A DNA stretch of 64,000 bases from Candidatus Sulfotelmatobacter sp. (GTDB lineage: Bacteria; Acidobacteriota; Terriglobia; Terriglobales; Acidobacteriaceae), in assembly GCA_036500765.1 (NCBI GenBank), contig DASYBM010000016.1, forward strand, positions 372,001-436,000, read 5' to 3'. The notes under the pieces are model-generated. The model made no database searches and was not told where the DNA came from. It was given only the letters and a program-made list of their open reading frames with translations. A program made the position numbers and the translations under genes. Positions 8,675-62,383 of the stretch are shown in pieces (position 1 is the first letter of the stretch; each line of letters opens with the position of its first letter).

Positions 8675-8774
8675 AATCGGTCGTTAGTCGTTAGTCTTCG
8701 GTCGTCGGTCTTCGGTCGTCAGTAGTTGGTTTGGGTTTTGCCGACGACCAACGACCGACGACCAACGACGGTTT
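8675..8774. repeat. Heptamer-type array, inverted arrangement
   Basis: GTCGTTAGTCGTTAGTC... (8681-8730) faces GACGACCAACGACCGACGACC (8741-8770) around a short T/G-rich centre, inside the operon between pilM and pilN. Potential long hairpin in the polycistronic mRNA. Confidence 0.75.
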
Positions 8775-41405: not shown

Positions 41406-41813
41406 CTACGCTGTCCAGTTTTGGACCTTCAGGCCGCGCACGCGACGAAATTCTTTCTCATTGTTAGTAACGAGAATCAGCCCAGAGGCCAGGGCGTGGG
41501 CCGCGATCCAGAGGTCGTTGTTGCTGATGATTTCGCCCTTCGATTGCAGTTCGGCGCGGACCGCTCCATAAATCTCAGCGGCAGCTTCGGGAATGGTAAG
41601 ACACGGCAACAGGCGCATAAGGGCACGCAGCCGTTCCAGATCCTCCGACCGCTGGCCGCGCTTGGCGGCGCCAAAGAACAAGTCACCATAGGAAATGACC
41701 GAAACCGCGGCTTCGCCAGCGCGGAGTTTGTTGAATCGGCGGACGACCTCTTCCGGCCTGCCTTGGCGGATGTAGATAAAAATATTGGTGTCGAGGAGAT
41801 AGGTTAGTTCCAT
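41406..41813 (-). CDS. PIN-domain toxin VapC-like
   Basis: A 135-residue PIN toxin with LLDTNIFIYI at the N-terminus, ISYGDLFFGA mid-protein and the acidic residues of NNDLWIAAHALA near the end; LVTNNEKEF follows. ATG 41813 is preferred over a TTG start at 41834 that would run to within 6 bases of the antitoxin. It pairs with the AbrB-like antitoxin upstream. Confidence 0.86.
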   Translation of the reverse strand: MELTYLLDTNIFIYIRQGRPEEVVRRFNKLRAGEAAVSVISYGDLFFGAAKRGQRSEDLERLRALMRLLPCLTIPEAAAEIYGAVRAELQSKGEIISNNDLWIAAHALASGLILVTNNEKEFRRVRGLKVQNWTA

Positions 41814-41840
41814 CGCGGGTTCCACACTAGCCAATGTCGT

Positions 41841-42074
41841 CTACAGGCCTTTGCGCTTCTGCGGGGGGCCGTCGTCTTCGGCGGCGGCCCGAAGAACATC
41901 TTCGGGTAAACCCGCGATCAGCTCGAAGGCGCGCGCCATGTCGTTGCTTTTTTCGCGGAGAACGATTTCCTTGCCGCGGCGGAAGATTTCGACTTCTTCG
42001 CTCTTGAAGCGGAATTCTTTCGGCAGGCGGACGGCCTGGCTGTTGCCGGACTTGAATACTCGGGCGGTGCCCAT
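41841..42074 (-). CDS. AbrB/VapB-type antitoxin
   Basis: A 77-residue antitoxin: [20 protein letters not shown] is the AbrB-like DNA-binding part and the C-terminal half contains charged toxin-binding residues (ENxxDMARAFELIAGLPEDV). ATG 42074 has a strong GGAGAGGGAG Shine-Dalgarno sequence. The frame is open further upstream, without domain signal. Gene order antitoxin-toxin, as usual. Confidence 0.88.
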   Translation of the reverse strand: MGTARVFKSGNSQAVRLPKEFRFKSEEVEIFRRGKEIVLREKSNDMARAFELIAGLPEDVLRAAAEDDGPPQKRKGL

Positions 42075-42091
42075 GGTCTCCCTCTCCTTGC

Positions 42092-42117
42092 GTATATACA
42101 TTAGGTATATACATTTA
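42092..42117 (-). promoter_or_regulatory. Candidate VapB operator, 13-base direct repeat
   Basis: GTATATACATTAG (42092-42104) and GTATATACATTTA (42105-42117) are head to tail, just upstream of the antitoxin Shine-Dalgarno. A related 13-base pair of repeats lies in front of the antitoxin at 54406. Confidence 0.55.
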
Positions 42118-42361
42118 TCCTGGGTGCCCGCAAGCGGAAGCTGTAGACGTGGGTGAACCATGCGCAGAGCGCGCATGGATGGGACACCCGAAGAAAACAA
42201 TTTTCGACGCAGGGGACACAGACTACGCGATGGGGACAAACTTCTCCAGGATGTTTCGTTTCAGGTTGTCATTTCAACCTCCCGGAACACCTCCGCTCGG
42301 ATGAAAACCATTTTGTCTTTCTCCCGTCTAAGGAGGCAGTTCTTCGAGGAGGGTCTAAGAG
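42118..42361. other. Divergent intergenic region upstream of a DinB-like gene
   Basis: No gene is supported. A GGGACACCCG piece of a repeat family occurs at 42180. The sequence CGAGGAGGGTCTAAGAG immediately before the DinB-like ATG is its Shine-Dalgarno region. Confidence 0.4.
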
Positions 42362-43000: not shown

Positions 43001-43036
43001 TAGGCGCTCAGAAGGAAGGTTGCATGAGAGAATCCC

Positions 43037-43104
43037 AACCAATAGCGACCAACGACCAACGACTAACGACCAACGACTAACGACCAACCACCAACCACCA
43101 ACGA
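43037..43104. repeat. Heptamer-type CGACCAA array
   Basis: ACGACCAACGACTAACGACC-type 7-base units, all in one orientation, in front of the DedA-rhodanese stop codon (which is in the last unit, ACTAACTG). Confidence 0.75.
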
Positions 43105-44076
43105 CTAACTGAACGTCGGCAGCTTCACCAGATCGTTCTTCGGCACCGACTCCAGCGGTTCCCCGGCCTTCCGCCAGGCCGCGAATCCACCCACGATCAC
43201 AAACGCGTTGAATCCTTTTTCTTGCAGTAGATGCGCCACCCGGGCGCTAGTCGCCTCGCGCGCTCAAGTGCAGTACAGATAAATGTCCTTATCCTTGGGA
43301 AGATTCTTGATCTCCTCCTCCAGATTGTTGGGCTCGATGCGAATCGATCCCTTAATGCGTTCGGAGCCAACGTCATAGTAGCCGTGGCTGCGCACGTCCA
43401 CGATCAACACCCGGTTGGCATCTTCCGAAGCCAGCCGCGCCGCCAGTTCCTGCACCTGCACGCGCGGCATGACCCGATACTTCTTATATTTGCGGAATTG
43501 CGCCGCCCGATAAACCGCGTAAACCATCAGCGCCGCGATGACCACCGCTTCCATCGCCCGTCCGGCCGCGTGAAATCCCGACAAAGTAGCCGCCAGAAAA
43601 TCGCGCGACAAATATCCCACCATCAGGTACGCGCCCGCATACAGCAACGACCCTGCCATGTCCAGCCGCAGGAACTGCCCGAAGTGCATCTTCATGCTGC
43701 CCGCCAGCGGCGCCGCCATCGTGTTAATGCCCGGGATAAACTTGGCAAACACCAGCGTCAATTTGCCGCGCTTGTAGAACGATTCTGCCGACCTGAGAAT
43801 GCACGTCTCCGGATTCATCGACAACCGACACAAAAATCCCAGGAGCGCCCAGCCCGTGTAGCGCCCCAGCCAGAATTGCGCGGTGTCGCCGACCAGAAGC
43901 GCCACCATCGCAATCAGCAGCACCGCCGGCCCTGACAAGGTGTGCGACGCAGAAGCCGCCCCCGCCGCCACCAGCGCAATCGCGGCCGGGAAGGGAAGCC
44001 CGACCGCCTCGGCCAACAAAACTCCAAACGTCAGCGCATACCCATGCCGCGCCATCATGGAGAGCAATTCACTCAT
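43105..44076 (-). CDS. DedA-family membrane protein fused to rhodanese; in-frame TGA (candidate selenocysteine)
   Basis: Residues about 1-190 are a DedA (SNARE-associated) membrane domain (SFVFAKFIPGINTMA-type GxxFG/RxxP-like segments: GLPFPAAIALVAAGAA, AKFIPGINTMAAPLAGSM). Residues about 215-320 are a rhodanese domain: LIVDVRSHGYYDVG, then the active-site loop IYLYCT-TGA-AREATSARVAH, then FNAFVIVGGFAAWRKAGEPLE. The TGA (43266-43264, codon 271) sits where related proteins have Cys in a CxC active-site loop; the downstream frame continues 53 codons with clear rhodanese similarity to TAG at 43107-43105. Either Sec is inserted or the gene is truncated. Confidence 0.8.
43233..43247 (-). promoter_or_regulatory. 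Possible SECIS-like hairpin after the in-frame TGA
   Basis: On the minus strand, GCGCC (43247-43243), loop CGGGT and GGCGC (43237-43233) form a 5-bp stem with a G-rich loop beginning 21 bases after the TGA, within the range of bacterial SECIS elements. A competing GGCG/CGCC stem exists. Weak evidence on its own. Confidence 0.35.
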
Positions 44077-44266: not shown

Positions 44267-45256
44267 CTACTTCTCCCGCGCCACCACAAATTCCGGAGCC
44301 CACAGCAGCGCCCGCTTGATCTCCGAATCCGGAAACGTGCAGATCGCCTTCTGCGCCGCGTCCGCATAGTGCGCCGCCTGAGCCGTCGCCGCCTCGACCG
44401 ATCCGTAGCGCTGCAAGATTTCGAGAACCTCCGCATGGGTCACGCCGTTGAAAGCGCCATGCTGCAACACGGTCGCGATCTTCACCCGCTCTTCCGCAGT
44501 GCAGCGCTCCAGCGCATGGATCACGGCCATCGTCGCCTTGCCCTCGCGCAGATCGCTCGCCACCGGCTTGCCCAGCACATCTTCCGACGCGGTCAGATCG
44601 AGCACATCGTCGACAATCTGAAACGCCATCCCCAGATTGTGCCCGTACTGCCCCAGCGCCGCTTCCTGCTCCGCCGTAGCTCCGCCAAGAATCGCTCCCA
44701 GCCGCATACACACCGAAAACAGGCAAGCCGTTTTGCGAAAAATTAAGTCGAAATGCTCCTCCAGCGTGATCGACTGCCCCAGCTTTTCCATCTGGAGAAG
44801 TTCGCCCTCGACCATCTGCTGCGTCAGTTCGATCAGCGTATCGAGAATGCGGAAGTTCCGCTCCTGCACCGCGATCTTGAAGGCCTGCATGTAGAGCCAG
44901 TCGCCCGCCAGCACGCACTTCGAATTCCCCCACTGCGTATTCGCCGCCGGACGCCCGCGCCGCGTTGTAGCGTCATCAATGATGTCGTCATGTACCAGCG
45001 TCGCCGTGTGAATAATCTCTACCACTGCGCCCAGCCGCACCGCGCCCTGACCCGAGTACTCCAGCAACTTCGCCGAAAGCAGCAACAACGCCGGCCGGAT
45101 CCTCTTCCCACCGCCCGCCCGCAAATATTCGCCAATCTCGGTAATCGCCCGAACGCCCGAAACCGTATCGCGCCCAAACTCCCCCTCCAGCGCGACAAGG
45201 TCGTCCCGCAGCAGATCAAATATCTCTTTTCCGTTAATGGCCGCCGGCGCGCTCAA
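44267..45256 (-). CDS. All-trans polyprenyl diphosphate synthase
   Basis: A 329-residue trans-prenyltransferase (octaprenyl/heptaprenyl type) for quinone side-chains. The two Asp-rich motifs are visible: LVHDDIIDDATTRRGRPA (first, preceded by GGGKRIRPALLLLSAK) and QIVDDVLDLTASED (second). TTG at 45256 has AGAGG 4 bases upstream and starts LSAPAAINGKEIFDLL. A TTG at 45328 is possible but would overlap yajQ and lies inside a repeat (ACCACAGAGGGCACAGAGG). Exact chain length cannot be read. Confidence 0.9.
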   Translation of the reverse strand: MSAPAAINGKEIFDLLRDDLVALEGEFGRDTVSGVRAITEIGEYLRAGGGKRIRPALLLLSAKLLEYSGQGAVRLGAVVEIIHTATLVHDDIIDDATTRRGRPAANTQWGNSKCVLAGDWLYMQAFKIAVQERNFRILDTLIELTQQMVEGELLQMEKLGQSITLEEHFDLIFRKTACLFSVCMRLGAILGGATAEQEAALGQYGHNLGMAFQIVDDVLDLTASEDVLGKPVASDLREGKATMAVIHALERCTAEERVKIATVLQHGAFNGVTHAEVLEILQRYGSVEAATAQAAHYADAAQKAICTFPDSEIKRALLWAPEFVVAREK

Positions 45257-45293
45257 TGCCTCTGTGCCCTCTGTGGTTAAGTTTTTTTTGACT

Positions 45294-45788
45294 TTAATTG
45301 CTTCGATAATTTGTAAACTGCAAATCAATCCCGAAGTCGTGCCCCCGCAGCAGCGCGATCACATCCTGAAGCGTGTCGCGATCTTTGCTGCTGACGCGCA
45401 CCAGGTCCGCCTGGATCGACGCCTGCGCTTTCTTCTTCGAGTCCTTGACCAGCTTCACGATCTCCCGCGCCTTCTCGATGGCGATGCCTTGCTGCATCGT
45501 CACCTTGCGCTTCGCCGTTCCACCCGCCGCCGGCTCAAGCGCGCCATAGGTCAGCCCTTTGAGCGAAACTCCGCGCTTCACCAGTTTCTGCTGTAAGATG
45601 TCGTTCACCGCCTTCAACTTATACTCGTCGGCCGAATGCAGGACGATGGCGTCTTTTTCCAGCTCAATATTCGATTTTGAATCCTTCAGATCGAAGCGCG
45701 TGTGAATCTCCTTCAGCGCCTGCTGAATCGCGTTCGACACTTCGTTCAGATCGATCTTGCTCACTACATCAAAGCTATTATCGGGCAT
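45294..45788 (-). CDS. yajQ: YajQ-family cyclic-di-GMP/nucleotide-binding protein
   Basis: A 164-residue protein of the YajQ (UPF0234) family: MPDNSFDVVSKIDLNEVSNA, the FDLKDSKSNIE segment, LVKRGVSLKGL, and AIEKAREIVKLVKDSKKKAQ with IQADLVRVSSKDRDTLQ at the C-terminus, all as in the family. Binds nucleotides, reported to bind c-di-GMP in some bacteria. Downstream of the TatD gene and upstream of the polyprenyl synthase on the same strand. Confidence 0.95.
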   Translation of the reverse strand: MPDNSFDVVSKIDLNEVSNAIQQALKEIHTRFDLKDSKSNIELEKDAIVLHSADEYKLKAVNDILQQKLVKRGVSLKGLTYGALEPAAGGTAKRKVTMQQGIAIEKAREIVKLVKDSKKKAQASIQADLVRVSSKDRDTLQDVIALLRGHDFGIDLQFTNYRSN

Positions 45789-60967: not shown

Positions 60968-62383
60968 ATGAAATATCCTCTTACGAAGCACGTCCGAATT
61001 CATTCCTGGCTTCCAATCATGGCGCTCGCCACCCTGATTTCGGTGACGCCCGCAAGAGCTCAATCCAACTCTATGCCGCAGGACCGCGATGCGGACCTGA
61101 CTCATCGGCAGTTGGCCGCATTCGACCAGTTTCTCGATAGCCATTCAGAAATTGGCGGACAGCTTCGCAAAGATCCAGCGCTGATAAATAACCAGGACTT
61201 CGTGGCCAATCACCCCGAACTCCAGCGCTACCTGCAAGACCATCCTGAAGTGCGCGAGGATCTGAATCGGAATCCCAGCGCCGTGATGCATCAGGAAGAA
61301 CGCTACGATCGCCGGGAAGACGACAGAGATCGAGACCGCGACCGTAATGACACCAACCGGACCGAACTCGCGAACATGGATCGCTTCATGGACAGCCATC
61401 CCGAGATCGCCGAGCAGTTGCGCAAAGATCCGTCGCTCGTCGACAACAAGCAGTTCGTTCACGATCATCCTGCGCTACAGGAATTCCTGGCCAGTCATCC
61501 CGGCGTGCGCGAGGAGTACAAGGAAAATCCCAACGCCTTCATGCATCGTGAAGACCGCTTCGACCAGCGCCAAGAAAATTTAGGAGCAGATAACCGGGGC
61601 GATCGCGACATCAACCGCACCGAACTGGGGAATCTGGATCGCTTTATGGACAGCCATCCGGAGATCGCCGAGCAATTGCGGAAAAACCCATCGCTTGCCG
61701 ACGACAAACAATTCGTTCACGATCACCCTGCTTTTCAGGAATTTCTGGCCAGTCATCCTGGGGTGCGCGAGGAGTTGAAAGAAAATCCCAACGCGTTCAT
61801 GCACCGTGAAGATCGCTTCGATCAGCGCCAAGATAACCGAGGGGATCGCGACGTGACCCATCTCGAACTCGCGAACATGGATCGCTTCATGGACAGTCAC
61901 CCCGAGATCGCCGAGCAGTTGCGCAAAGATCCGTCGCTCGTTGACAACAAGCAATTTGTCCAGGATCATCCCGCGCTACAGGAATTCCTGGCCAGCCACC
62001 CGGGCGTGCGCGAGGAGTACAAGGAAAATCCCAACGCCTTCATGCATCAGGAAGCGCGCTTTGACCGCCGCGAAGACGCCATGCGCGGCGACAACGACGT
62101 GACCCGCGGCGAACTCTCCAGCTTCCACAGTTTTCTCGCGGACCACAGCAACATCGGCGCGGAACTCAGCAAGAACCCGGGCCTTGCGACCAACCAGGAA
62201 TATCTGGCGAATCATCCTGAGTTGCACAGCTACCTGCAAGCGCATCCGCAGGTAAACGAGGAATTGAGCGAAAACTCCGCTTCGTTCGTGAAGTCGGCCC
62301 AGCAGTTTGAAACGCCGGCCAAACCCGGACCGCGGCCCATGTCCGATCCAAAGATGTCGAACCCGATGCCGAACCAAAAATGA
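60968..62383 (+). CDS. Exported charged repeat protein (five repeats of about 80 residues)
   Basis: A 471-residue protein with a signal segment (HSWLPIMALATLISVTPARA, cleavage near RAQS) and five repeats: roughly residues 35-115, 120-205, 205-290, 290-370 and 375-440. Each repeat has DRFMDSHPEIAEQLRKDPSL and FLASHPGVREE plus NPNAFMH. Asp/Glu/Arg/His-rich, with few aromatics. Repeats 2-4 are more alike at DNA level than the outer ones. Function unknown; the sequences suggest helical, soluble periplasmic repeats. ATG 60968 has GGAGG about 9 bases upstream. Confidence 0.78.
   Translation: MKYPLTKHVRIHSWLPIMALATLISVTPARAQSNSMPQDRDADLTHRQLAAFDQFLDSHSEIGGQLRKDPALINNQDFVANHPELQRYLQDHPEVREDLNRNPSAVMHQEERYDRREDDRDRDRDRNDTNRTELANMDRFMDSHPEIAEQLRKDPSLVDNKQFVHDHPALQEFLASHPGVREEYKENPNAFMHREDRFDQRQENLGADNRGDRDINRTELGNLDRFMDSHPEIAEQLRKNPSLADDKQFVHDHPAFQEFLASHPGVREELKENPNAFMHREDRFDQRQDNRGDRDVTHLELANMDRFMDSHPEIAEQLRKDPSLVDNKQFVQDHPALQEFLASHPGVREEYKENPNAFMHQEARFDRREDAMRGDNDVTRGELSSFHSFLADHSNIGAELSKNPGLATNQEYLANHPELHSYLQAHPQVNEELSENSASFVKSAQQFETPAKPGPRPMSDPKMSNPMPNQK

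Follow-up and report, generated by a model that had tools for sequence, protein, structure and literature searches.

Gene structure and surroundings of the locus

The window (the whole stretch of 64,000 nucleotides that was analyzed) contains a minus-strand open reading frame, 44076–43105, that joins a VTT/DedA domain to a C-terminal rhodanese domain and has a single in-frame stop, a TGA at 43266–43264 (codon 271). The frame reads MSELLSMMARHG...IYLYCT-TGA-AREATSARVAH...KLPTFS-TAG, and the TGA is followed by 52 sense codons and then by TAG at 43107–43105. The first-pass annotation had described the frame, the TGA, the rhodanese sequence beyond it and the final TAG in the same way, but had counted one codon too many (53) between the two stops. 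The main features are as follows.

43105–44076, minus strand: predicted DedA(VTT)–rhodanese selenoprotein gene, 323 aa when the TGA is read through
43609–43992, minus strand: VTT/DedA membrane domain, residues 29–156 (Pfam PF09335, VTT_dom, 46.5 bits)
43168–43452, minus strand: rhodanese domain, residues 209–303, including the TGA (Pfam PF00581, 50.8 bits; fold like that of solved rhodaneses)
43264–43266, minus strand: TGA, putative Sec codon 271, aligned with the rhodanese catalytic Cys (123-gene comparison; alignment to 6mxv)
43270–43272, minus strand: Cys269 codon, proposed partner of Sec271 in the C-T-U loop (56/56 aligned proteins)
43233–43247, minus strand: candidate SECIS hairpin GCGCC-CGGGU-GGCGC (pairs kept in Sec genes, synonymous sites frozen only there)
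43828–43830, minus strand: Cys83 codon, invariant Cys of the DedA domain (56/56 and three betaproteobacterial proteins)
43801–43803, minus strand: Cys92 codon, second invariant Cys of the DedA domain (56/56 and three betaproteobacterial proteins)
44267–45328, minus strand: polyprenyl synthetase gene directly upstream of the DedA–rhodanese gene (Pfam PF00348, 246 bits)

Both domain scores exceed the Pfam cut-offs (22.2 bits for PF00581 and a gathering cut-off of 33.9 bits for PF09335), which places the protein in the DedA/VTT family and, together with the fold (Foldseek E 2e-5 to solved rhodanese-like proteins), in the rhodanese family.

Several other elements were observed in the window. Short arrays whose 7-base unit is related to GACCAAC/GTCGTTG occupy intergenic positions at 43035–43109 and also at 8741, 17659, 20965 and 50522; the first of them sits immediately behind the DedA–rhodanese stop codon, and some relatives have similar sequence after the gene. 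A PIN-domain protein is encoded at 41406–42239 (minus) and has a small upstream ORF that by eye resembles an AbrB-type antitoxin, so that the two probably form a toxin–antitoxin pair. Besides, a unit of about 258 bases is repeated in tandem (2.9 copies) at 61349–62066 and may be coding.

Rhodanese active site and DedA domain

In a gap-free alignment with 6mxv, a solved rhodanese-like protein, the residue encoded by the TGA, here called Sec271, falls on the Cys at the catalytic position. Cys269 stands two residues before it, and the loop YCTU (C-T-U) thus has the C-x-U/C form. Cys83, Cys92, Cys269 and Cys/Sec271 are invariant in the 56 proteins aligned and are also found in three betaproteobacterial fusions. 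Within the DedA domain, Cys83 and Cys92 lie in a stretch of the form CRxSxxPxxC. An AlphaFold model built with Cys for Sec is of moderate quality (mean pLDDT 82.8, pTM 0.69) and matches solved rhodaneses; in it, strand 264–268 and helix 272–286 flank the active-site loop. The segment VYRAAQFRKYKKYRVMPRVQVQE, behind the last hydrophobic helix, has a net charge of +6, which by the positive-inside rule favours a cytoplasmic location of the rhodanese domain.

Residues E39, D51, R130 and R136 of YqjA/YghB, an acidic and a basic pair, are reported as essential in PMC10127716. When the window protein is aligned with E. coli YqjA, E39 corresponds to E23 and R130 to K112, while D51 and R136 correspond to A32 and N118. 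Among the 56 proteins, E23 is present in 48 and K112 in 55, and the states listed for them include no acidic residue at position 32 and no basic one at position 118. On the flanks that were fetched, the polyprenyl synthetase gene lies directly upstream in 53 of the 68 Sec orthologues, and it is absent from the short flanks of 28 of the 29 Cys genes.

These data bear on a reading in which the Sec protein has an ordinary DedA domain, acting as an undecaprenyl-phosphate flippase, with the rhodanese as an accessory. The conserved neighbour speaks for it, as does the assignment of DedA fusions of the same type to COG0586 in PMC10127716. However, only E39 and R130 have counterparts, and neighbouring genes may merely be co-inherited: since the synthetase is missing from the short flanks of nearly all Cys genes, its adjacency may reflect common descent. 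We consider this reading unlikely, though deserving some weight, and did not accept the DedA part as a COG0586 undecaprenyl-phosphate flippase, because two of the four key residues are lacking.

The TGA codon in related genes

In total, 123 distinct DedA–rhodanese genes were compared, taken from the window, from other contigs of acidobacteria and from stretches that were fetched. At the site of codon 271, 94 of them carry TGA and 29 a Cys codon (TGC in 22, TGT in 7), and no other codon occurs; the UGA is thus aligned with the Cys of homologues, which bears out the earlier suggestion of Sec in place of Cys at this position. When 300 genomes of the same family were searched, about 75 long relatives containing a single stop were obtained, and this stop was always TGA. 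Among 80 genomes chosen by the form of their DedA–rhodanese gene, SelA scored above the cut-off in all 45 with the TGA form vs 3 of the 35 with the Cys form only.

On a quick tree of the 56 proteins, in which many forks are weak, the Sec/Cys label changes five times, at least three of the changes being forced by well-supported branches, and the Cys groups are nested among Sec proteins. We infer that Sec is old in the group and that Cys replaced it where the machinery was lost.

It should be mentioned that TGA-containing rhodanese genes were also found outside this orthologous group. A second group of DedA–rhodanese paralogues, 34–39% identical, also has the TGA and the same hairpin, with the loop LYCTUPNEATSARVA (L100, L105, L107, L158–L170). 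Single-TGA CxU rhodaneses, either stand-alone or fused, are present in many families of the phylum. In two of the fusions (L088:142–1842 and L093:223–1854), the partner of the TGA CxU rhodanese is a Na+/H+ exchanger domain (PF00999, 136 and 122 bits), and the TGA is followed by the same hairpin, GCGCC-CGGGT-GGCGC; they represent another type of transporter–rhodanese selenoprotein. Finally, in one acidobacterial genome two stand-alone CxU rhodanese genes lie side by side, and both have a TGA and a hairpin of their own (L095:1498–2382, minus).

Selection before and after the TGA codon

Comparison with close relatives gives a dN/dS of 0.093 for the part after the TGA, practically equal to the 0.092 of the rhodanese part that precedes it, and the next stop follows after exactly 52 codons in 72 of the 94 Sec genes; the segment behind the TGA therefore appears to be translated. 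Random damage of this segment in relatives, which the first-pass annotation had considered as evidence against a selenoprotein, is not what the genes display, as they are under purifying selection. Reassignment of TGA was rejected, since TGA is itself the terminator after exactly 52 codons in 19 of the 94 Sec genes.

Of the 94 Sec genes, 82 have ACT as the codon preceding the UGA (43267–43269 of the window, minus), compared with one of the 29 Cys genes. This is a further constraint linked to Sec and suggests that the context has been selected for read-through. The same bias could be taken as selection on the stop context, as would be expected if the gene were a two-product switch: with selenium the full DedA–rhodanese protein would be made, without it synthesis would stop at the UGA and leave DedA without the active-site loop, and the codon itself would serve the DedA domain as a selenium sensor. 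The position of the UGA downstream of the entire membrane domain, where truncation leaves DedA intact, is compatible with such a switch. However, every selenoprotein yields some truncated product, and lineages without SelA retain the full-length Cys form, which points to the rhodanese as the selected product. We therefore regard the switch as improbable.

The hairpin behind the TGA codon

The hairpin consists of a stem (43247–43243 paired with 43237–43233) and a five-base loop (43242–43238), the stem beginning 16 nt and the loop 21 nt after the UGA. The distance of about 21 bases given in the first-pass annotation is thus that of the CGGGT loop, not of the stem. GCGCC-CGGGU-GGCGC is a hairpin just behind the UGA with a small apical loop that contains G, a feature of SECIS elements taken from PMC1088965, and G occupies the second loop position in 94/94 Sec genes.

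All five stem pairs can form in 93 of the 94 Sec genes vs 3 of the 29 Cys genes (Fisher p 3e-22, a value that overstates independence, the compared genes being related). At codons +6, +7, +9 and +10 the synonymous differences are 0.03, 0, 0 and 0.03 in 69 Sec orthologues and 0.08, 0, 0 and 0 in 25 Sec paralogues, against a background near 0.5 in both sets; in the 29 Cys genes they are 0.31–0.66 at the same codons. RNAalifold selects this hairpin alone. A compensatory exchange of C-G for U-A is seen in one relative (L048, GUGCC/GGCAC) and in a stand-alone CxU rhodanese gene (L095). Covariation in alignment A1 is thin, with one pair showing two-sided change, which 42 of 500 shuffles equalled; as the stem shows hardly any variation, formal covariation is weak and does not serve as the main proof.

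The single-sequence folding energy is no better than that of shuffled sequences (z −1.16 and +0.21). The hairpin had been called a weak SECIS candidate, which is correct for its energy but not for the strong nucleotide selection that is specific to the Sec genes. As folding energy alone does not support the assignment, we base it on this selection, by which the hairpin is recognized as a SECIS element.

The energy values are also what could be adduced for a recent nonsense mutation or a sequencing error at 43264–43266 in a Cys-type gene, both raised by the first-pass annotation. However, about 90 further genes, spread over many genomes and families of the phylum, share this TGA, selection is unchanged behind it, and the hairpin is kept at synonymous sites; we therefore attach practically no weight to a mutation and dismiss an error.

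Selenocysteine machinery of the host genome

The host genome (5.04 Mb, 99.3% complete) was searched for selA, selB, selC and selD, as the first-pass annotation had proposed, and the full set characteristic of selenoprotein-producing bacteria was found. It comprises a tRNA-Sec gene (64.8 bits; anticodon TCA according to ARAGORN), SelB (an ORF of 653 aa, 348 bits, joined), SelA (531 bits, joined) and SelD (366 bits), the last with one internal TGA in the context GUASK. Two formate dehydrogenase alpha-like (FdhA-like) ORFs contain one in-frame TGA each, in the contexts ARVUH and ARIUH. SelD and these two ORFs are located at G000:C11:42967–43893, G000:C2:27058–28098 and G000:C4:81419–82351. Since in-frame TGA codons occur in them as well, the Sec trait appears to be used beyond the DedA–rhodanese gene. 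The short stretches folded behind the UGA codons of SelD and FdhA gave hairpins, one of which (FdhA, GUGCCC-GGUCU-GGGCAC) resembles that of the DedA–rhodanese gene.

Proposed role of the selenoprotein

Four groups of data point to Sec decoding: (i) the Sec codon itself; (ii) the presence of the machinery; (iii) the hairpin with its Sec-specific selection, and (iv) selection on the protein after the codon. On this comparative evidence UGA codon 271 is almost certainly decoded as Sec. Insertion of Sec in the DedA–rhodanese gene combined with a sulfur or redox role of some kind is very probable.

A more detailed scheme can be proposed. SelA, SelB, SelD and tRNA-Sec would decode UGA 271 under the direction of the hairpin, giving a 323-residue membrane protein that consists of a DedA (VTT) part and a cytoplasmic rhodanese domain with Sec271 as its catalytic residue. 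Sec271 would accept sulfane sulfur (or oxidising equivalents), and the charged or oxidised residue would be resolved by a Cys269–Sec271 selenenylsulfide. The rhodanese site might then exchange sulfur or electrons with the Cys83/Cys92 pair of the DedA domain, and such an exchange would couple the cytoplasmic sulfur/redox state to the membrane domain. Taken from the uptake by Sec271 to the coupling with DedA, this scheme is credible but tentative.

The occurrence of CxU rhodaneses on different acidobacterial membrane transporters (DedA and the Na+/H+ exchangers of L088 and L093) allows a broader speculation, namely that the CxU rhodanese serves as a portable sensor, of redox state or persulfide, that depends on selenium. 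We think this rather unlikely; if true, it would mean that Sec chemistry gates transport.

The finding adds a widely conserved membrane selenoprotein, whose product would be ended at residue 270 by ordinary gene calling, in soil bacteria with little-described selenium use. It would place selenocysteine beside DedA, a family in which the role of rhodanese fusions is unexplained, and the natural Sec and Cys versions form a ready comparison set. It should also be mentioned that the short SECIS element is defined by selection and not by energy, its single-sequence fold being weak, and that energy-based scans could miss elements of such a type.

Comparison with known selenoproteins and DedA–rhodanese fusions

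The 2026 inventory of 119 selenoprotein families (PMC13188914) lists no DedA or VTT selenoprotein, and the passages on rhodanese in PMC10127716 and PMC12893004 make no mention of Sec forms. Full-text literature searches judged by title, with subscription papers and preprints outside their scope, gave no Sec fusion of DedA and rhodanese; some members may already be annotated with Sec in public protein records. Judged from the sequences compared here, the Sec DedA–rhodanese fusion is a real selenoprotein absent from the 2026 inventory, while CxU rhodaneses and Cys fusions are already known.

The closest known selenoproteins are those with a CxU loop, catalogued as rhodanese-like form 3, NF041203 (PMC13188914, Table 1; PMC9312934). 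This model ('LYCAU') is the best NCBIfam match and shares with the window protein the C-x-U loop and Sec at the catalytic position. However, it covers 126 positions without DedA, while the window protein is a membrane-protein fusion with a CTU loop. Assignment to NF041203 was rejected, as the score of 88.7 bits is below the curated cut-off of 115 bits; this cut-off is passed in only one of 297 genomes of the phylum.

Rhodanese-like selenoproteins of forms 1, 2 and 4 likewise have Sec in the rhodanese domain, but within UxxS or UxxG motifs, and no Cys is listed two residues before the Sec, unlike in the window protein. TsoB, a rhodanese/DsbD fusion-like selenoprotein (NF045694), similarly combines a Sec rhodanese with a membrane protein; in contrast to the window protein, its partner is DsbD-like and it has two Sec residues in the motif UxxxxU (PMC13188914).

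As to Cys forms, DedA–rhodanese fusions such as P. aeruginosa PA1209 are described and assigned to COG0586 in PMC10127716 and PMC12893004, where their connection to undecaprenyl phosphate is called unclear. These fusions have the same domain order, and in the copies from betaproteobacteria Cys83 and Cys92 are present together with a C-x-C loop, but the copies examined have Cys at the position that is occupied by Sec in the window protein.
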